Assembly (NCBI RefSeq): GCF_000004825.1
Contig: NW_008805090.1
Span: 124,001-188,000, forward strand
Source: Heterostelium album PN500
Lineage: Eukaryota > Evosea > Eumycetozoa > Acytosteliales > Acytosteliaceae
Direction of reading: 5' to 3'
Length of the DNA: 64,000 bases
The notes below the pieces were generated by a model. It worked only from the letters and a program-made list of their open reading frames with translations, made no database searches and was not told where the DNA came from. Made by a program: the position numbers and the translations under genes. Positions 1,500 through 55,111 of the stretch are shown piece after piece. Every line of letters starts with the position of its first letter. Within the stretch, counting starts at the first letter, position 1.

Positions 1500-3553
1500 G
1501 TTTTTCTTTTAATTTCCACCCTGTTCTTGTTCTTTATCAGAATATATCTATATTATTATATTGTTCTTGTTTTTTCTGATTTTGTTTTGTTTTGTTTTTT
1601 GAAACCAAACTAGTTTCTCTCTAATTCGAATAGATATATCTATATGTTTGTTTTGATCAATGCTGTTTATCTGTTTTATTTGTTGATCTAAATTTAATTA
1701 TCTAAAAATGATAATAGTATAAGTATACTTTTGAACGATCGATCGATTGTTTATAAATAGAAATTAAAAAAAAACATGAATAAACTACTTTTACAAAAGT
1801 ACAAAGTTATTTTTCGCTAAAACTACAAAATGACTGATTAGATTTGTGATTATACTAAATCCTTGATAGGTAGTATTTGTTTAGATAGCTAGCTATGTTG
1901 TTAATGAAATTGCTAATCGCTAATTATTTGATTTTGAAATGTAATTGTGAGATGAAAGATATGATATTTATTGAAACACACCCAAAAAAAAAAAAAGCAA
2001 AAAGGAAAAAAGGACAAAAAGTAAAAAAAAAAAATAAACGAGATTGTTTGATTGGATGGATTGGTTTTGTTTGCTGGTCTTTTTACCTTTGCCGCTATTC
2101 TATTATAAATATTTCTCTCTCTCTTTTGTCTTTTTTTGTCGATCTTAATATTATTATTATTATTTGATTGATTGATGTTGATGATGATGATGATGATGAT
2201 GATGGTTATGTATGAAGTTGGTGTTCTTGTTACTAATTTTAATTATTTTTATTTATATAAATATGTATTTTGTAATTATTATATATTTTATTGTTTTACT
2301 ATTACTACTATTAATAACAGCACAGTCACGATTGAGAATAGCGACGCGTCGAATGTTTAAATTAATGCTAATAATGTTAAATTTTTTCAAAGTGGAGAGA
2401 TATCAAACCAAAATTAAAGTGCTTGTTTTTTTTTTCAAGGTGGTTTGAATTTTTTTGATTTTTGATTTTTTTTTTTTTTTGATTGTGATAACATTAAAAG
2501 TGTGTGTGATAGATCAATTAATTGTAATTTGATTACTACTAATATACTATTGTATATTATCATGTTGGGGTGGAGTGCGATATTAAATATTAACTTTACT
2601 GTGCTATTGTCATTCGTTCCGATCACACTTGTTTTTAACAAAAAAACTTAAACTAATATATACCTTTAAGGTTGTGTAAAGTTTGCTACTACTTTTTTTC
2701 AGATCTTGAAAACTTTTATTGAGAAAAAGATATAAATATATAATAATCTAATAGATAGATAGATAAAAGAAGGTAACTATCTATCAGCAGAGGTAGTTAG
2801 TTATCAATCAAAAATGGTGGAAAAAGACTTTGAACTTATTTTGATTTAAAATTTACAAAAAAAACAAAAAAATAATAGTTTTGCCATGAAAACTACCTCC
2901 AGAAAAGATTTTATTTTTTTATTTTTAAGTTTAACAAAACTAGAAGATATTTTCTAGGCTAGATATTTTTAAGTTTGGTTTCACTAAATCAATCAACAGC
3001 AGCAATGATAACAAAATTTTTTTTATATTTTTAAAAAATAAGATTATAATATTGATCAAAATAAATAAATAAATAACATTATAAAATAATTTACCACCAA
3101 AGTTAACTTTTTTGCCAATATTCATATATATTCAGATTTGATGGTTCTACAAGAACAAGATGATATCAAAAAAATAAAAATAAAAAAACAAAATAAAATT
3201 AAAAAAAAAAATTAAAAATTTCGATTATCTAAAAAACAAAACAAATAAATTAATAATTTAATTAAAATTTCACAAACTTGAATTTTTGAGATCTTTATTT
3301 ATTCGTGATACAGAAACAACAAAATAACAATTTTTCTTTGTTTATTTTTATTTTTATTGAAAAGTGTGTTTTTTTTTCTTTCATTTTGTCAATTTTTATT
3401 CTGTTTATTTATTTCAATTTATTTAATTATAATAATAATATTGACTGTACAGTATAAAAAAAATAAAATAAAATAAAAATTAGATTAAATTTAAATATAA
3501 ATTTATATACATATAAATAGAATATATATAGAAATATATCAATCAATCAATCA
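1500..3553. other. Long A+T-rich intergenic region
   Basis: This divergent spacer lies between the kelch gene (leftward) and the PX-dynamin gene (rightward). It holds poly-A and poly-T runs and a (GAT)n microsatellite near 2179-2204. Short open frames at 1895-2641 are Lys- or Ile-rich translations of low-complexity DNA with no domain signal. I see no RNA gene or mobile element. Confidence 0.6.
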
Positions 3554-3640
3554 ATGTTAAATCCACAGTTAGGTTATAATGATGATGATGATGACGGTGT
3601 AGAGGAAGAAGGTTTATGGACAACTCCTGTTACTTCGCCT

Positions 3641-3671
<31 letters not shown>

Positions 3672-4833
3672 CACCAATACAACAAACACAACAAACACAA
3701 ATAACAGCACAACTTAATAATGTAAATAACAATAACAATAGCAATAGTAATAATAGTAATGGTAAAACATCACCTACGATTGTCAATAAATTGAATAATG
3801 GTGGAAATATACCATCATCAGTACAGAAATACAATAATGTTGGTAATCAACAGAGTATATTCAATACTGGTATGATGATGGCTAGTACCGATGACATCGG
3901 TGAATCAGATTTCGATAGAGTTGTTAATATTACCAATAAACAAAAACAACAAACACAACATAAATTATATCAACAGCAACAGCAACAGCAACAACATCAA
4001 CAGCAACAACATTTCGAGAGTAGTGATCCTGAAGATGAGGAAAATGAAGAAGTTGATATAAATAAAAAGAAGAAACAACAACAGCAGCAGCAACAGCAGC
4101 AGCAACATCATCAACAACAGTATCAACAAAAACAACAACAACAACAACAACAACAGCTTCATCAACAAAAACAACAACAACATAAGGATGAAAGTAGTGA
4201 TCCTGAGGATGATGATGATGAATTCGAAATGAATAAGAATAAAAAGAAAAAAGCAATGTCATCTAGCACCAACAACAGTAATCTATTAATGAGACACTCA
4301 TGGTTGTTGAGCAACGAATCGATCGTGTTCACCAAAGAGAATATTATGTATAAAATGACAATGGGAAATGTTCATATCACCAACCAAAGAGTGGTTTGGG
4401 AGTGTTCCGATGAAACTCTTCCCGATGTTTATTTAGATGTTTTACAAATCTATCGTAAGTTTTTCTTTATTCAAAACCTTTCAATGATATATATATATAG
4501 ATATTTGAAATTTGAAACTAACAACATACATATATAATAATCATCATGATTGATAAAATAGATACTGCAATGTCTGAAAGTCCTAGAACAAATTGGAAGG
4601 TATCATGTGCTGGAAGTGACTTTTTATTCTTCTTCCCATCGGCAGAGGAAATCAAAGAGACCAACGCATACTATCAGCAGTCTAAAAAGAAACTTTATGA
4701 ACAGAATCCACAACTCTATCAAAAACATAAGCTTCAACAAAAGCAGAGACAACAAGCTCAATCTGAACAGCAACAAGCTCTAAAGTTACAACAACAAGAA
4801 CAACAACAACAAGCTCAAAGATTACAACAACAA

Positions 4834-4865
<32 letters not shown>

Positions 4866-7317
4866 GTTACAACAGCAGCAGCAGTTACAGCAGCAACAAC
4901 AAATTAGAAATAATAACAATAACAATAGTAATAATAATATTAAAAAACCAATATCACCTCCAAATGAAGCATTATATCCAGCACTTAATGAAAATGGTGG
5001 AAGTGGTGGAGGTGGAGTTGGTAGAGGTAACAATGGAAATGTTCAGAGACAGACAGGAGGAGCGAATGGAAGTGGTGGTGGTCGCAGACACAAAGCATCG
5101 ATGGAAGACGATTTTGTTACTATTTCCGAGGGATATAATGTCGGTGGCAATGGTGATATGTCGTGGGTTGAGGAATCGAATGGCACCGACCAGGCGGGAT
5201 ACTTTGATATCGAGGTGAAAGACCCACGTCATGCGCACGAAGACGGCAATACCTATGTGACCTACGAGATCGTCGGAAAGTACAAGGACGAGAAAGGACT
5301 CGTAGATATCAAGACACGTCGTCGTTACAAGGAATTCGAGTGGCTGCATCAACAGCTATCGTTGCCATCGAACCAGCACCACGCCAAAGTACCGACACTT
5401 CCACACAAATCGATGATCCAGTTTTGGAACAAGACCGATCAGACTGCAGTGGTAAAGCGTTGCTTCCAACTCGATTCCTTCATGAAGGAGATATCGAGTT
5501 CCGTCTACTTTAGAAATCATCCGGCCACCAAGGAATTCATGAGCAGTCGCTCCATAACGCTACAACAGAGTACAATAACCGACTTTATTGGAAATACAAT
5601 CTCACCGCACCTCGCCAACGCCGGAATCATTGGTATTAACGATCAACCATTAGTTGATCAAACATTTATATATAATTCAAGTAACTATTTAATTATTAAT
5701 AACTTCAATTGTTAACAAACAAGAATACTAACTTTGATCGTTATTATTATTATTATTATCATTTAGTTATTGAAAGAGATTATTGGTTAATTAGAAGATT
5801 AATGAAGAAATGGGATTTACTTCCAAAGAAGTTACCATTCCCAAAGTTTTTAGTTGTTGTTTTGGGTACTACATCGGCTGGTAAGAGTTCTTTCATCAAC
5901 AATTTCTTTAATATGCAAGTGAAGCGATCTGCAATCGGTCAACTCGATACTCATTTCACATTAGTTGAAACTATTCCAAAAGAACAATTTGCATTATTAA
6001 GTGATAAAATGTCTGATAGAGTAAGTTTATTTAAATTTGATAAAGAAAGACAAAGAAAGAAAGAAAATATTACAACTTGATATTAATTTATATAATGATG
6101 ATAATAATAATAATAGGAGAAAACAAAGAAATTTACAAGAGAACAATTAAATGAAAAGATAACAACGGAACCAATGAGTGATCCAAGATACGGTCATGTA
6201 TTCCTCTACATGGATACATCGTATACACTCTCACGATATGATGCTCAACTCGGTCGCTACGATGATATCATCTCCAAGTATGGTTTGGTTAGAAGTATTC
6301 TTATTAATGAAGAGTATCTTACTGGTACTCCCGATGAAATGTAAGTTTAGTTTAATAATAATTAATTAGTTAGTTATCAGTTAAAATTGATATTAATAAT
6401 AATAAATTATTATGATACAAATTATAGTATATATCAAAAGAAAACAATATTTTTAGATTCACCAGGTTTCGAATCAAAGAAGGAAAACACTCAAGATACG
6501 CTACTTGGAAATATAAAGATCATTCAATTCTTTTATTCGACGAGTGATTTAACGCTGTTTATGATGCCCGCCAAGAACATATCTTTGGTGTCACCACAGA
6601 TTCAGATTCTAGAGATATGCGTTATGTATAAGCTGTACGGGCCAGAGATTGTCGATCAGATGGTAACAAAGATATTCAAGCAGCGGTCCGACCAGCAGAT
6701 GTCGTTCCCATCGATTTCCGAGCTCACCAGAATCATCGTCAATCAATTTAAGCGTGAGGATAGACGACCCAATCAGGAATACGTTGGAACACTGGTCTGG
6801 GACAAAATTAGATTTTTGTTGACTCAGATCGATGACATCTCCAACTACGAAGATACCAACCTTCGCGAACAGTACTTTGAACTCGGAAGACTGCTCGGAA
6901 AGAGTCTTACATTCTTAGATCCACCGACCTACACACAGTGTATGGCGATCGCTTTGCCACTGGATCGCATATACAAGTCTCCCGAGGAGCGACGTATCAA
7001 GACCGGTGATCTCGACTCACTCCTTGCCTACATTAGAAGTCTGAACAACGAGAGCAGCTATCACGGTAGACTTGAGTCGGCTATCCAAGAGATGTCCATT
7101 GCTCTATTACCACATATACAAAGTAAGTTAGTTGGTAACATATATATTCAAAACGATCAATATTAACTTGGCTTAACTATTATTATCAATCCTAGATTCA
7201 TGGAAGAATTATTTAGATTTGAATCAATGGATAAGCAGTGATTCTGCTTGTGTCGACCAAATCAGAGATAGATCAAATGCCAGAGTCAGAGGTTCATCGG
7301 CAATGGATAAGCGATAG
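3554..7317 (+). CDS. PX-domain / dynamin-type GTPase with N-terminal GRAM/PH-like domain
   Basis: Six exons fit in phase: 3554-4454, 4562-5680, 5767-6020, 6117-6340, 6428-7122 and 7196-7317, giving about 1104 residues. Order of parts: Asp/Glu and Gln-rich leader (to about 230); a GRAM/PH- or GLUE-like segment (about 240-340, GNVHITNQRVVW then FLFFFPSAEEI), split by intron 1; a long poly-Gln/Asn stretch; a PX domain (about 515-640) with RRRYKEFEWL and a Pro-rich loop; then a dynamin-superfamily G domain with P-loop GTTSAGKS and G3 motif DSPG, followed by an alpha-helical region. PX domains bind phosphoinositides, usually PI3P, and dynamin-like GTPases remodel membranes, so an endosomal membrane role is inferred. 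The G4 motif is not obvious by eye. The final exon, after the last intron, adds only about 40 residues. The 3' end converges on the next gene 298 bp away. Confidence 0.85.
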
Positions 7318-48204: not shown

Positions 48205-50841
48205 TTAAATTAAATCTTTTCTTGTTACAATTCCAACTACTTGATTATTAATGTCAACTATAAATATTTATGATTGAGATGATTAGTAAAATGATTGAAT
48301 AATAGATTATTAATTATCAAACTAATAAAAATAATAATCAAATACTTACTAACAGTTAAATGCCTTAATCCCATAGTTCTAAATAATTTATAACATTCAC
48401 TGAATGAGAATGTATCATGAATAGTAATACTAGAGCTATTCATATCTAATAATAATTAAATAAACAATGGTTAAAAAAAACAAATTACTTTTGAAATCGA
48501 TATATTAATTAATAAATATACTTACATGGTCTTAAATCAACTAGTTTTTCTTCTTCATATTTGTTGAAATCAAAATCTTCTAGTTTTGGTACTTTCTTTG
48601 AGGTCTCTTCGATGAATTTCTGATGTCTAAAGTTATCGTCTAAAATGATTTCACCGTTTTGTCCACGATAGAAGATCTTGTGTTTAAGAAGTACGAGAAT
48701 TGTACTTCTCAATACAAGTCCGAGGTATTGGCGTTTGAAACCGTTTTCACCGGTGCACACCACCGGGTATCCATTGTGGTTGTTGTTTTTCAATGTCTCC
48801 AAGAGTACGCGAACCGTGCAAATCTCTGGAATGACAACGACCTGCTTATTCATGATTTCCGGCACCTTCTTGGCAGCCTTTGAGTGCGGTGGCAAACTCT
48901 GAAGGAACGGAATATATTTCAGCTCCATGAGATGCTCATATACCGATTCGTTGAAGAAGTCTCCTACCCACTTGGCAATCATAACCGCTAGAATGATAGG
49001 CACCAGATATTGCGTTCCTTCGGTCAACTCGACCATAATAACCACCAGTGAAATAGTCATTCTGCAGTAGCCAGCCATCATAGCGGCCGTTCCAACCAGC
49101 GCATAAATAGAGGCATCGATACCTTCGAACCATAGTCCGACCACTTGACCAACGAATCTACCGAATCCAGCACCGACCATCATCATCGGTACGAAAAGAC
49201 CACCGGCAACCCAAAGACCACTGGTAATCACCGAGAGGAAGAAATAAATACAGGTGAACACCAAAAGTACACCAAGCGTGAATGAGTTATTGGTACGAGA
49301 ATACAATCTTCTCAATGCTAAATCTGGATTTACAAATAACAATGATGCCATCTCACTATACATTCCAGGCTATATAATAATAAAATCAATTTAAAAAAGA
49401 TTAGTTTCAATAGCAATGAGGTTGTTATCGTTGTTTTTTGTTTACTTACAGGACAAAAGAATTGTTCCATTTGAGCATTGGTTTGATCTTCACAGACAGA
49501 TGGTTCAACTTGGATGTTCGATTGATAACGACATGGGAATATCGATGGTGAGTAGAAACAAATGACAGAGGTGATGACCATAACGACGATCGCTTCAATT
49601 GAACGGAGTGATATATTCTTTTTGAGGTAATCTCTACGCCATTTGTTGAGATGAATGTTTAGGAATACAAAGAGTGCACCGAATGCACCACCGAGAACAC
49701 CGAGGATGCAGAAGCACAACAGCTCTGAATAGCGGTAGAGATAGAGTCGCGAGAATCCAAATGTCAACAAACCAGTGTCGTGCATGTCTGGCGACGTTCC
49801 GAAACCTTGTAGCAAAAAGTTGGTCGTAAAAGTAGCGATCATACAACAGAAGAAGGTACGCCATGTCAGTTGACGACTCCAGAACGACGATGCCTCTTCG
49901 ATCGAGAAGAGAACACCACCGATCGGTGCACCGAAAGCAGCGGAAATACCAGAGGCAGCGCCCACCGATATGAAATCACGCTTATCTCGATCGTTCTGAT
50001 ACTGCAGGAACAGCTTTGGGTAGAATTCAAAGGTGGACGAACGGAACTGACTGACGGCAGCACCGATTGCCGAACCGATGTGAATCATCGGGCCTTCCGG
50101 ACCAACAAAGAGACCACTCGAATAGGACATGATCAACGAGAAGATCTTTCCAAACAACGATTTGAATCCCAGTGAATTTGGAACTTTGACACCGTTCAGG
50201 TAACCTTTTACCTCTGGAATACCAGAGCTACTTGCCATCGGACCGGCAACAATCACCAACAAAATCGATATCGTAGCATATAACAAATTGATTCCTAGAA
50301 ATGTTAAAAATGCTTTACTAGATGATCCTTCAGTTATATCTATCAGAGATAATCAACAATTGTTAATAAACAATCAATAGATCAATGTTCTACACATTTA
50401 TAAACATTATAACCTACAGTTTTGTACAGTATAGAATTTAAAACCTTGAAGATGATCAACCGTTGATTTTATAATATATGCAAAGCAACCTACAATAACA
50501 CCTATAAGTAAACATATTATCCATTTACCTAGTGTTTTCTTTAAGTGTTTCTATAGAATATGATTTTTGTTAGTTTAGATTTTGTTTTTTAACTTATTAG
50601 CAACATAACAACTTACTATTCTTGTTTTATTTTCTAGATCTTCTCTTAGTAATAGATTATCATTTACGGTAAAGTCTAAACTCTGTACATTTTTCATCAT
50701 ACGAATTTCATAGGGTGTGAGGTGGTGAGATCTTCTACGATGAGTTACAGGAGTCTGTGTCTGAGGTGATGCATTGTAGAAACCGTCGTTGCCATTGTTG
50801 TAGGCATCGTTCACCATTGGACGGTTTAATGAACCTCCCAT
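48205..50841 (-). CDS. CLC-family chloride/proton exchanger (CLC-6/7-like)
   Basis: Six exons (50617-50841, 50418-50550, 50339-49450, 49370-48536, 48445-48350, 48257-48205) give about 743 residues. CLC signatures appear in order: SSGIPEVKGYLNGVKVP; VGPEGPMIHIGSAIG with the gating Glu; FSIEEASSFWSRQLTWRTFF with the proton Glu, as in CLC-7; and GLWVAGGLFVPMM. Both glutamates are present, so 2Cl-/H+ exchange rather than channel behaviour is expected. The C-terminus has two CBS domains (PEIMNKQVVVIPE ... and the final DINNQVVGIVTRKDL). The N-terminus is cytosolic, with a His/Arg-rich stretch (RRRSHHLTPYE). The likely site is endosome, lysosome or contractile vacuole membrane. A small variation: the usual Gly before SGIP is Ser. 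The last exon encodes only 17 residues. Confidence 0.95.
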
Positions 50842-51194: not shown

Positions 51195-52112
51195 TTAGTT
51201 ATTTGCAGATGTGTTGACAATCAATTTTGAATCAAGTTTAATTGGTACAGCTCTGCCTGTTATAGAATTATGTCTTTGTGAGTTGATGCAAACGATATCA
51301 ACACCACCGTGTGGCACATTTGTTCTTAAACTTGAGTTGTTGTCATTGCTGTAGCTTAGCAACATCTGATTGTTGTTGTGGAGAATTTCAGTGGTGTTTG
51401 ATGGTGGTGGTGAAGTTGATATGGTTTCACTCGTAGAGGAAATTGGAACTACATTCAATTCTGGACTACCTACTTCCATGTCTTTATGATGGTTGTCTTT
51501 GTTGGTGTGCAACTTCTTATATCGCTTGTATCCAAAGATCGTTCCAGCCGTGACAATGGCAGCGAACAATACACAGCCAACAGCAACTCCAGCGATTTCA
51601 TAAGTTGATAAAGTCGCACTAGTAGCACCGGTTCCACTCTCCATTGCATCCATTCCTCCTGTGTATGTATTAACAAACTCTTGATATGTCATATCACTAA
51701 ATTGATTTACACCCACTAAATATTTAATTAAAGTTAGATTTGTGTATACTTTTTCAAAAAATAATTAACTTATTAATTGATACTAACAAACTTGTTGTTG
51801 TTCAGCTGGATATGATACTGTTGTTTCAACTTCTGGATTGGCAGCCAATTCCTCATCGGTTGGATTATCGATATCCACTTGTGCAGTGTTGGCATTGTTC
51901 TCGGCGACACTCAAGGTATTTGTCTTCCAGTTTTGAAATCGTTGTTGCATCTCTGCAGAATCGTATTGTTTGCCATACTGAGTTGCCCATGTTTGAAAGT
52001 TTGAAAAAAGTACGGCATTAGATGGAACAGCCTCAGTTCCACTCATGAGCAAGTAAACAACAAAACAATATATTAAACAATATTGTTTGATATTGTTGAT
52101 TTTATTAAACAT
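51195..52112 (-). CDS. Membrane-anchored orphan cathepsin propeptide (I29 inhibitor-like) protein
   Basis: Two exons (51788-52112 and 51195-51715; donor GTTAGT) give about 281 residues. Signal peptide at 1-28. Residues 35-118 form a cathepsin-L-type propeptide: the full ERFNIN pattern is readable from Glu54 (E-x3-R-x3-W-x2-N-x3-V-x3-N), and LGVNQFSDMTYQEF (109-122) is the GxNxFxD motif. Between the two lies an acidic insert of about 25 residues. No protease domain follows; there is instead a Ser/Thr-rich spacer, one transmembrane helix (about 148-170) and a 110-residue cytosolic tail. Free-standing I29 proteins such as CTLA-2-alpha, silkworm BCPI and Drosophila crammer inhibit cysteine proteases, so a surface or lumenal inhibitor or protease chaperone is inferred. 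The protein is encoded head-to-head with a papain-family protease that lacks this very propeptide. Confidence 0.8.
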
Positions 52113-53412
52113 TTTTACAATTTGATAATTAATAATTTACAAATACAAATTATTTACAAGTTATTTACAACGATGTTACTACTAAAATTACAATAATTAA
52201 GAAATAAATAGATAAAAGAGATAATTATAAATACAAAGAATAGATAAATAGAATAATAAGAATAGGAAGGATAATGGAATTTAAATAATTTGTAATTTAT
52301 TCATTTTGGACAAAGGTCAAACAAAACAAATCACTACACTTTTTTTTTAAACATTATTAATTACAATAACGGCCATAATCAAAATTGACAGATATGTATT
52401 ATTATTATTTGAATTAAACATATACTTTATGACAATACTAATTTAATATAGAACATACATACACTTTTTTAAATTGGTCATGAGTTTCATTCAAACTCGT
52501 TTTATTTTATGCTAATTTTAAAATAAGATTGAAAGTACTGTCGTCGTTCATTTATAAACAATTTAAAACAGGACACTTTGACATAGACTACCCTACCAAT
52601 CCACCAATCAACTACCCCAATTAACTGATCAAACAAAGAGTGATTTTTGTTTAGCCCATGGGTTTTGATTGTTCCATGCGATTCGAAACAACAAAAAATT
52701 CCTATTCTTCCCATTTTATTTGAAATTCATAAAATTTAATGATTTAAACACATTAAAAAAAAGGTGTGTTTTATTTTTGTGATCACCCCACTAACATCCA
52801 AATTTGTGTTTTTACAAAAACAAAAAGACAATCTTTTAATTTATTTTTGCTCCCCCAATGTAGTACTACTTCATTATCTGTATTTCTATATATATTTGAT
52901 TCTTTTTCTGCAGCTACTACTATTTTAAATCTCTATCTATTCCACTAGTTCTGAATATTTTAACTCTCATATCTTTTTCTTACTTTGGTATTAATATATA
53001 CAAATCTTTCTAAAAAGAACAGCCAACAATCAACAATTCAACAAAATAAAAGATAACTCAAATTCAGAGGTAAAAGATATATAATATTTCGTACAATGTA
53101 ATCCAATCATTTCACAGAACAAATATGTATTATTTACAAATCGAGGTTATTTTATAACTGTTTAGAACTTTAGGTTGGAAAAGTATCCATAAGGTTGGTT
53201 GTCTAAAAATCTAATTTTGATTCCAATACATATGTATTTTACACTTTTTATTCCAAAACCAATTTAAAATTGTTGGCTTTCTTCAAAATTGGATAGAATG
53301 GCCAAATATTCTGATTAAATAATTGTCATAACAGATTATAAATACCATATCATCTAAAATCATTTGTTATTTGTATTTATTCTTTCAAACTAAATAAAAT
53401 TATCAAAAAAAA
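52113..53412. other. 1.3 kb bidirectional spacer between orphan propeptide and CAP-papain genes
   Basis: A/T-rich, with no gene. A balanced-composition patch at 52500-52700 has an open frame (leftward, 70 codons) without domain content. The region must supply both promoters. Confidence 0.45.
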
Positions 53413-55111
53413 ATGATTCATAAATTATTTTTAACAATTTGTATAATAGTAAATCTAATTTTTTTTGTCCAATCACAATGTACAGCCGATGATATTAAAA
53501 ATATTGTTAATGTGCATAATACTATTAGAAATGATGCCGGTATTACATTTGGTCCAAAACCACTACAACCTCTACCTCAACTGACTTGGAGCAACACCAT
53601 TGCCCAAAAACTTCAATCTTTTGTCTCTAGTTGTCAATATAATACTGTTCCAGGACCGAATTTTTCCAACTATGGTTATGCTTCCTTTAGAATTGGTGGT
53701 AAATTTGATCCAATAAGAGTATGTATTTATTACATTATTTATATTTATTTTTTGAAAATATCTCAAAATTAATATGTTTTTTTTTAACAATTTTTCAAAG
53801 ACTCTAAATAAAACATACTATCATGATGCACCATTGTACGATTGGAGTACAAAGAGTTGTAAAGAGAATTCTTGTTGCTATACCTACCCCACTGTAAGAT
53901 TAAATTTACCAATAAATTAAAAAAATAAACATTTCTAATGTTCTTTGTTTTTTTTATAATTTTTTATAGTTGGTTTGGGGTTCTACAACAGAGATAGGTT
54001 GTGGAAAGATGTCATGTGATTCAATAACATGGTTACTCTGTGGATATAGTCCAAGTGGAGGTATCGTTGGAATGAATCCATATCCATCCATTTATGATAA
54101 TCCTTCACAACCAACAAATACACCACAGCCTACATCTCGCCCATCAAATACTCCACGACCGACAAATACTCCACAACCAACAAACACTCCAAACCCAACA
54201 CCAAGTAAATCTACACCACCATCACAATCGGGTCTAATTGATGGTGTTTTATCACTAGTCAATGGTATATTGGATTGGCGTACAATTAATGGTGTGGTTA
54301 CATCAATTAAAGATCAAGGTATGTCTAATTATATTATATGATTCATATAAGTGATTAATATTTATTAATGTATCCAATATATTCAGGTCAATGTGGGGGC
54401 TGTTGGTCATTCACTAGCGCAGCCTCTCTGGAGAGTAACTATTTAATTAATAATACTGGTTCATCAAGTGATTTAGATCTATCGGAACAATATTTCATTG
54501 ATTGTACATATGGAAGAGATGGTTGTAATGGTGGAAATGCAGGTGATGTATTTAGAAAGTTCCAGCAATCAGGTGCTATCATGAACAGTGATGATCCATA
54601 CTCTGGTAGATATACAGGTCGTTGTCAGTTCAACACACCGACCATCAAGTGGACCGGTTTCAAAACTGTTCAACCCAACAAACAAGCATTCTTAGATGAA
54701 CTAAAATATGGACCGATTGCAGTATCTCTCTATGCTGACCAGGGATTCATGAACTATAGAAATGGTATATACAGTTGTCGACAGAATTCACAGCCAAATC
54801 ATGGTAAGCTCTATACAGTATAATAATATCAATATCCTTGTATTAACATATTAATTGTATTTGTTAAACAAACAACAGCTGTTGTAATAATAGGATATAA
54901 TGAAATTAGTGATTATTGGATTATTAAAAAGTAAGTAATTATAATTAGTATTATTGAATTACAATTTGATGTTTGTTTATTAATTAAATAATTTAACTCT
55001 AGCTCATGGTCACAGAATTGGGGCCAGTCAGGTTTTATGACCTTAAATGCAGCCAACTCCAATTGTAATTTATATATGTATCAAGCATATAGACCAGTGT
55101 TTTCAATGTAA
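53413..55111 (+). CDS. CAP (SCP/PR-1) domain fused to a papain-family cysteine protease
   Basis: Six exons (53413-53718, 53801-53893, 53970-54318, 54387-54803, 54879-54930, 55003-55111) join in phase to 441 residues. Signal peptide 1-21. CAP domain about 25-185: VHNTIRNDAG, PQLTWSNTIAQKLQSFVSSC and LVWGSTTEIGCGKMSC with LCGYSPSGGIVGMNPY; the canonical GEN and HYTQ motifs are altered. Then a Pro/Thr linker of about 40 residues (NTPQPTNTPNPTPSKST), mucin-like. Then a mature C1A peptidase from DWRTINGVVTSIKDQG, with Gln249, Cys255 (GQCGGCWSF), His388 (NHAVVIIGY) and Asn406 (NSWSQNWGQSGF): all catalytic residues present. There is no I29 propeptide before the catalytic domain; the CAP domain and linker occupy its place. 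Three introns fall at or beside Gln249, His388 and Asn406. A secreted or lysosomal protease is inferred. Confidence 0.88.

Follow-up and report, generated by a model that had tools for sequence, protein, structure and literature searches.

Divergent genes for a membrane-tethered I29 propeptide and a CAP-papain protease without one in Heterostelium album suggest a zymogen in two components

Cathepsin L-type enzymes are the textbook case of proteases in which a propeptide on the same chain is required for both folding and silence. In a 64,000-nucleotide stretch of the Heterostelium album PN500 genome (NCBI RefSeq assembly GCF_000004825.1, contig NW_008805090.1, positions 124,001 to 188,000 of the forward strand; hereafter the window), two divergently transcribed genes encode these parts separately: a CAP-papain protease without an I29 propeptide, and a predicted membrane protein that carries I29 without a protease domain. 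The pair almost certainly forms one functional unit. It probably works as a two-component zymogen, the tethered propeptide acting in trans on the protease, although this mechanism is held with considerably less confidence. The same head-to-head arrangement is found at ten loci of the genome. Gene models, built from GT-AG splice sites and family comparison without transcripts, place the following features in the window.

53413-55111, plus strand: CAP-papain protease gene without I29, 441 residues, six exons
53413-53718, 53801-53893, 53970-54318, 54387-54803, 54879-54930 and 55003-55111, plus strand: the six exons of the protease gene
53506-54041, plus strand: CAP domain, residues 32-157, with two introns within (Pfam PF00188, E 8.5e-10)
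54270-55087, plus strand: peptidase C1A (cathepsin L-like) domain, residues 234-434 (Pfam PF00112, E 9.8e-51)
54401-54403, 54800-54802 and 54929-54930/55003 (split), plus strand: codons of catalytic Cys255, His388 and Asn406
52113-53412, no strand: intergenic region common to both divergent genes, 1300 bp between start codons
51195-52112, minus strand: tethered I29 protein gene, 281 residues (splice sites and family comparison)
52112-51788 and 51715-51195, minus strand: exons 1 (ATG at 52112) and 2 of the tethered I29 gene
51787-51716, minus strand: phase-1 intron of the tethered I29 gene (GTTAGT..ATTTAG)
51675-51998, minus strand: I29 domain, residues 39-122, with the intron inside (Pfam PF08246, E 2.3e-12)
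51534-51596, minus strand: predicted transmembrane (TM) helix, residues about 149-169 (Kyte-Doolittle 2.31 over 21 residues)
51252-51305, minus strand: conserved tail motif GVDIV...RHNSITGR, residues 246-263 (family alignment)

The window protease consists of a signal-peptide-like N-terminus, the CAP domain, a Pro/Thr-rich linker and the papain domain, and neither a Pfam I29 match nor a TM-like segment was found in it. It carries the catalytic residues Q249, C255, H388 and N406 just as the original prediction, made from the letters of the window, had read them; the missing propeptide and the divergent transcription from a spacer of about 1.3 kb were likewise read correctly. When the family profile is compared with the PDB, the solved structures that best match the papain domain are those of cathepsin L-like enzymes.

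The partner protein consists of a signal-peptide-like N-terminus, the I29 domain, a TM-like segment, basic residues and a tail of about 110 residues. Its I29 match covers the full Pfam Inhibitor_I29 model (1-59). Read from the alignment with the usual definition of the ERFNIN motif, its helix follows E-x3-R-x3-W-x2-N-x3-V-x3-N, with W in place of F and V in place of I, and the GxNxFxD-type motif, which had been called readable, is present as N-x-F-S-D. Extra residues ending in VSYP stand inside the domain before the latter motif. Directly after the hydrophobic segment at 149-169 comes GYKRYKK, and these basic residues suggest a type I topology; signal peptides and topology in both families are hydropathy predictions, as is the entry of both proteins into the endoplasmic reticulum (ER). 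The earlier description of this protein as a type I membrane protein that is essentially only an I29 propeptide holds for the I29 domain and the predicted TM helix; it overlooked a conserved tail, which would be cytosolic. The extra residues within I29, the tail motif and nine further pairs in the genome are additions to that description.

The genome searched comprises 32.9 Mb in 39 contigs, and all family counts come from it. Ten genes that join a CAP to a C1 domain (CAP-C1) were found, on eight contigs: C28 (the window), C14a, C14b, C38a, C38b, C5, C4, C15, C13 and C7. The two domains were confirmed by Pfam in eight of the proteins and by genome matches in C5 and C38b. The conserved linkage that had been proposed as a check is present within this genome: beside each of the ten CAP-C1 genes lies a divergent gene for a TM protein, and I29 is readable in nine of these ten partners. 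Chance adjacency of the two window genes can be rejected, the same arrangement being found at ten loci. Start codons are separated by 1300 bp in the window and by 556-1776 bp in the eight other modelled pairs (C38b was not measured). All seven aligned tethered proteins match the I29 model, and no C1 family is among their Pfam matches, so that I29 shares its chain with no protease domain; the eight CAP-C1 sequences compared all match the CAP model (PF00188), and none of them has I29 in cis (E <= 0.01 throughout). The I29 domains of C5 and C38b are genome matches of 24.4 and 26.1 bits (cut-off 24.4). Hydropathy gives a TM-like segment in all nine modelled partners (Kyte-Doolittle 2.0-2.6) and in none of the nine modelled proteases.

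The layout of I29 in the genome is informative in itself. The I29 search returned 26 matches, 19 of which lie on the same strand as a C1 match just after them and are ordinary cis proenzymes; the remaining seven, all partial, each have a C1 gene close by on the other strand that is transcribed away from them. Comparison of the window proteins with the fetched loci added C15, C13 and, weakly, C7. Because of this layout, together with C15 and C13, all cathepsin L-type proteases found, except C7, have I29 either in cis or adjoining. The broader statement that such a partner accompanies all C1 genes lacking I29 in cis was rejected on account of the five remaining C1 loci, three cathepsin B-like (L018, L019, L021) and two X-like (L022, L023), which show no I29 match within the 7-8 kb fetched for each. 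The assignment of L022 is the least clear: cathepsin X is among its PDB matches (E 1.2e-15), plant enzymes score higher, and it is called X-like by its likeness to L023. The same layout bears on the idea that the tethered I29 is aimed at other cathepsins, the cell's own lysosomal ones or those of prey, while the adjoining CAP-papain is independent of it. Free-standing I29 inhibitors of animals do act on cathepsins as separate proteins (PMC4089206). This idea, however, leaves unexplained why an I29 gene adjoins each CAP-C1 gene found, whereas those found away from CAP-C1 genes are all ordinary cis proenzymes; we give it almost no credence.

Conservation among the tethered proteins extends from the propeptide to the tail. 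Residues invariant in the seven aligned members include F39, Y46, K63, P102, N112, D116, G128, S259, I260, T261 and R263. The motif N-x-[FY]-x-D is found in eight of nine modelled partners, C7 being the exception, and a phase-1 intron lies directly before N-x-F-S-D in the window gene and before the corresponding site in the eight others, the motif being degenerate in C7. The ERFNIN motif is only partly retained in other members (by the alignment, C38a lacks the Arg). The span between the helix-1 Phe and the N-x-F-x-D Asp is 78 residues in the window protein and 78-93 in the eight motif-bearing tethered members, as against 50-54 in the seven cis propeptides compared (from 19 cis I29 genes in total); the surplus of about 24-43 residues ends, in all eight, in a Pro that exactly nine intervening residues separate from the Asn. 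Further on, the window protein has Y-T-G128-G-M at the place matching M75-N-G77-F-Q79, the propeptide stretch of procathepsin L that contacts the active site (PMC4089206). Eight tethered members have 17-22 residues between the Gly of this YTG (or YNG) and the best hydrophobic window. In the PDB, the tethered-family profile matches 6u7d (E 1e-9) and 3f75_P, a cathepsin L propeptide (E 9.5e-9), and 3f75 is matched by the profiles of both families, the P chain by that of the propeptides and the A chain by that of the proteases. Among the nine modelled CAP-C1 proteins the catalytic Gln and Cys are present in eight, and the His and Asn in all.

The tail pattern H-x-S-I-T-x-R has eight matches in the family, with a one-residue variant in C13 and none in C7, and six elsewhere; the reversed pattern, as a control, gave five, and the outside matches are taken as chance. 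Such conservation suggests sorting, or sensing and signalling, beyond simple inhibition, and the relevant alternatives begin here. The tethered protein may be a receptor for signalling or recognition whose ligand is its own secreted CAP-papain, the tail passing the signal and the two being kept as matched partners. This would suit the invariance of S-I-T-x-R in proteins whose overall identity is only 25-36% (close copies and C7 apart), the distribution of the tail pattern and the congruent distances in diverged pairs described below. Against it, N-x-F-S-D and the active-site-contact Gly are retained as in inhibitory propeptides, all pairs with I29 retain the catalytic Cys, for which a pure ligand would have no need, and no Pfam signalling domain was found in seven tethered members (E <= 0.01) apart from IRF in two and Podoplanin in one, both taken as chance. 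We consider a receptor of this kind unlikely. A sorting receptor appears rather more doubtful: the tethered protein would mainly carry the protease from the ER and Golgi to an endolysosomal or secretory compartment, I29 binding the cargo and the tail directing it, with inhibition secondary. A conserved tail beside a plain TM segment, and proteases that lack a TM-like segment of their own, are what such a role would call for; yet no tyrosine or dileucine motif is common to all tails when the alignment is read by eye, and the proposal overlaps with the two-component zymogen and is inseparable from it by sequence.

The two members of the pairs have diverged together. Between-pair identity, outside close copies and C7, is 25-36% for the tethered proteins and 32-40% for CAP-C1, and C7 is 19-22% and 25-27% identical to the other pairs, respectively. 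The identity matrices of the two members are correlated over nine pairs (Mantel r 0.963, reached by 1 of 20000 permutations), and remain so without C5 (0.907; 13 of 20000) and without C5 and C7 (0.848; 143 of 20000). This correlation speaks against partner exchange, but joint duplication should produce it as well, and it does not prove that the partners are in contact. The ratio of nonsynonymous to synonymous substitution rates (dN/dS), given for I29 and then CAP-C1, is 0.17 and 0.31 for C38a-C5, 0.34 and 0.18 for C14a-C14b (dS 1.1 and 1.8), and 0.31 and 0.11 for C5-C4 (CAP-C1 dS 3.2); for C38a-C4 it is 0.32 for I29, CAP-C1 being saturated. It is thus below one in both members wherever measurable, the window pair being left out. 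In a C1 tree of 15 rows, eight CAP-C1 proteins group at 87/89 and C7 falls outside on a long branch; seven of the 12 inner branches are open, and the tree lends weak support.

These data also bear on whether ancestry alone keeps the genes together, as a relic propeptide fused to a TM segment and a separate CAP-protease, co-duplicated without joint function. The pairs were indeed duplicated as units, and one of them, C38b, has frame breaks in both genes. Nevertheless dN/dS is below one in both members where measurable, motifs and intron sites are retained, and linkage has been kept at all ten loci, on eight contigs, at 25-40% identity while the neighbours differ: among 102 open frames in the flanks (about 1.4-3.2 kb per side), none recurs from locus to locus, tandem copies and stretches that overlap excepted, and the matches between the flanks of L011 and L013 are, by their coordinates, ends of CAP-C1 genes. 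Co-duplication without joint function is therefore very improbable, and a reading of the genes as relics or pseudogenes was rejected on splice sites, motifs and dN/dS (the last without the window pair). Eight spacers were also compared for shared k-mers. Of the 400 commonest, no 8- to 10-mer of at least 40% guanine plus cytosine occurs in at least five of the eight, and two 7-mers occur in six of the eight, a count made without a shuffled control on which no claim is based.

The C7 pair is also difficult to reconcile with ancestry alone, since there I29 and the catalytic Cys are absent together, and only there. Its protease has Ser at both the catalytic Cys and Gln positions in a gapless alignment, in which a shift of one residue would bring a neighbouring Cys near; its partner is known by position, a signal-peptide-like N-terminus, a TM segment and the phase-1 intron. 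C7 may be either a decayed pair or an older form. The original proposal of one function split in two, and not two relics, is upheld by linkage within the genome, co-divergence, dN/dS below one and this joint absence, while its trans action stays a matter of inference.

In the two-component zymogen, both proteins would enter the ER by their signal-peptide-like N-termini. The membrane-bound I29 would then act in trans as steric chaperone and inhibitor, a role held in cis in normal cathepsin L, by docking on the papain domain so that the YTG glycine enters the active-site cleft at the position of procathepsin L Gly77. The stalk of 17-22 residues would run to the membrane at the place where a cis propeptide continues into the mature enzyme. 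In this way the protease would gain its fold, stay latent and travel bound to the membrane, the conserved tail would decide the destination of the complex or sense its occupancy, and acidification or cleavage would set the protease free. A propeptide moved onto a membrane anchor is the simplest mechanism because of the procathepsin L contact stretch, the YTG match to it and the 3f75 profile matches.

Several points weigh against this mechanism. That the propeptide binds and inhibits the protease, that the two genes are expressed together, what the tail does and how the protease is released are all points that we infer. The matching Gly matters in crammer (G73), but a Gly-to-Ala change at this site left CTLA-2alpha fully inhibitory, so that not all I29 proteins depend on this residue (PMC4089206). 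Because the pairs arose by duplication as units, their linkage and matching distances are partly common history; several of the dN/dS comparisons, which leave out the window pair, are near or past saturation; and the evidence comes from one genome. The papain domain behind CAP might fold by other means, and CAP itself might help it to fold. The tail, judged from the alignment, is more conserved than inhibition alone would need. Pfam gives no I29 match for the C7 partner, which also lacks N-x-F-x-D and the tail motif. In C38b (G000:C38:374830-377930; L013 about 2830-5930) the reading frame of both genes is broken when compared with C38a and C5, that of the I29 gene within the signal-peptide region and that of the protease gene within the repeat linker. 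Either the two genes have decayed together or the draft sequence is in error at short repeats.

Free-standing I29 inhibitors of the CTLA-2, crammer and BCPI type are typically soluble, and their target enzymes have propeptides of their own. The tethered proteins cannot be counted among this soluble type, each of the nine modelled partners having a TM-like segment. CTLA-2, crammer and BCPI (MEROPS I29) share with them the existence of I29 as a separate protein, and inhibit cathepsin L-like enzymes in trans (PMC4089206). In contrast, the tethered I29 has a TM segment, a conserved tail, extra residues and a head-to-head protease without a propeptide, and the passages of PMC4089206 used here mention no anchor for the others. 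In BCPI the C-terminal L77-R80 region matters, and CTLA-2alpha has the further effect of stabilising cathepsin L at neutral pH (PMC4089206). By profile the tethered domain belongs to the same I29 family as the proregions of cathepsin L-type enzymes (procathepsin L, the bromelain precursor and, as separate chains, 3f75), and its stretch from N-x-F-S-D to YTGG aligns to the bromelain precursor; it differs from canonical proregions in sitting on a TM anchor in a separate protein and in its longer span before the Asp. The CAP-C1 proteins, for their part, keep the catalytic tetrad of peptidase family C1A cathepsin L-like enzymes (eight of nine modelled) and lack the cis I29 (eight of eight compared). 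Free-standing I29 inhibitors are thus already known, and what appears to be new here is a membrane-anchored I29 paired with a propeptide-less protease, of which no description was found in the open-access papers searched.

Partial parallels exist elsewhere. The bacterial lipase-specific foldases (Lif/LipA) are membrane-anchored steric chaperones encoded beside a secreted enzyme, and in this adjoining arrangement they resemble the I29-TM/CAP-C1 pair, with an unrelated fold and enzyme. The invariant chain is a type II membrane protein with a thyropin inhibitor domain and does not form a gene pair with cathepsin L. Like the tethered I29 of the proposed zymogen, it acts in trans, binding and controlling cathepsin L (PMC4089206). 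If the mechanism proposed here is true, zymogen control can be split over two genes, and a cell could choose when and where a secreted protease is released; the pairs would be a ready genetic system for folding in trans, and their matched partners would allow specificity to be measured. The Dictyostelium genes tgrB1 and tgrC1 are also arranged divergently, and differ from the pairs described here in encoding Tiger (IPT/Ig-like) proteins and no protease. They are partners implicated in self/non-self recognition (PMC3188802). It is conceivable, though we would not expect it, that matched and co-inherited tethered zymogens double as a recognition system, in which a surface I29 receptor holds its own CAP-papain and the SIT-x-R tail reports whether it is bound or released. 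A protease propeptide would then have become the ectodomain of a receptor. The D. discoideum gamete gene gmsA belongs to the C1 family; the literature passage on it describes it only as gamete- and mating-type-specific.

No new pair came from searching the genome with two of the tethered proteins and one CAP region, but distant members escape these searches: both tethered-protein searches miss the C7 partner, and the CAP-region search misses the window's own CAP. A scan of viral contigs with the CAP-C1 alignment, made to look for a wider spread, gave seven loci that match in C1 residues only. The other matches of the tethered-protein and CAP searches are cis I29 genes or concern the TM stretch. 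Frames of about 290-620 residues with a TM-like segment resembling that of the tethered I29 lie at G000:C14:637805-665556 (six matches within 28 kb), C14:548644, C3:2278303-2411023, C5:612207 and C30:491987; the likeness in this segment may not reflect kinship, the proteins being then other membrane proteins.

In the window, a multi-exon gene resembling, by eye, a CLC-type chloride channel (48509-50841) is transcribed from the minus strand like the tethered I29 gene and lies directly downstream of it. Among the C1 genes elsewhere, L007 (G000:C12:907220-908187) encodes a cis I29-C1 protein with a Ser/Thr- and Gly-rich linker and the sequence CGSSYAF, where its relative L008 has CGSCYAF; with Ser at the catalytic Cys it is a probable pseudoprotease. 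L006 (G000:C27:1280519-1281791) and L002 (C27:1259285) encode cathepsin L-like proteases whose catalytic domain contains a long Ser-rich repeat between the active-site His and Asn regions.

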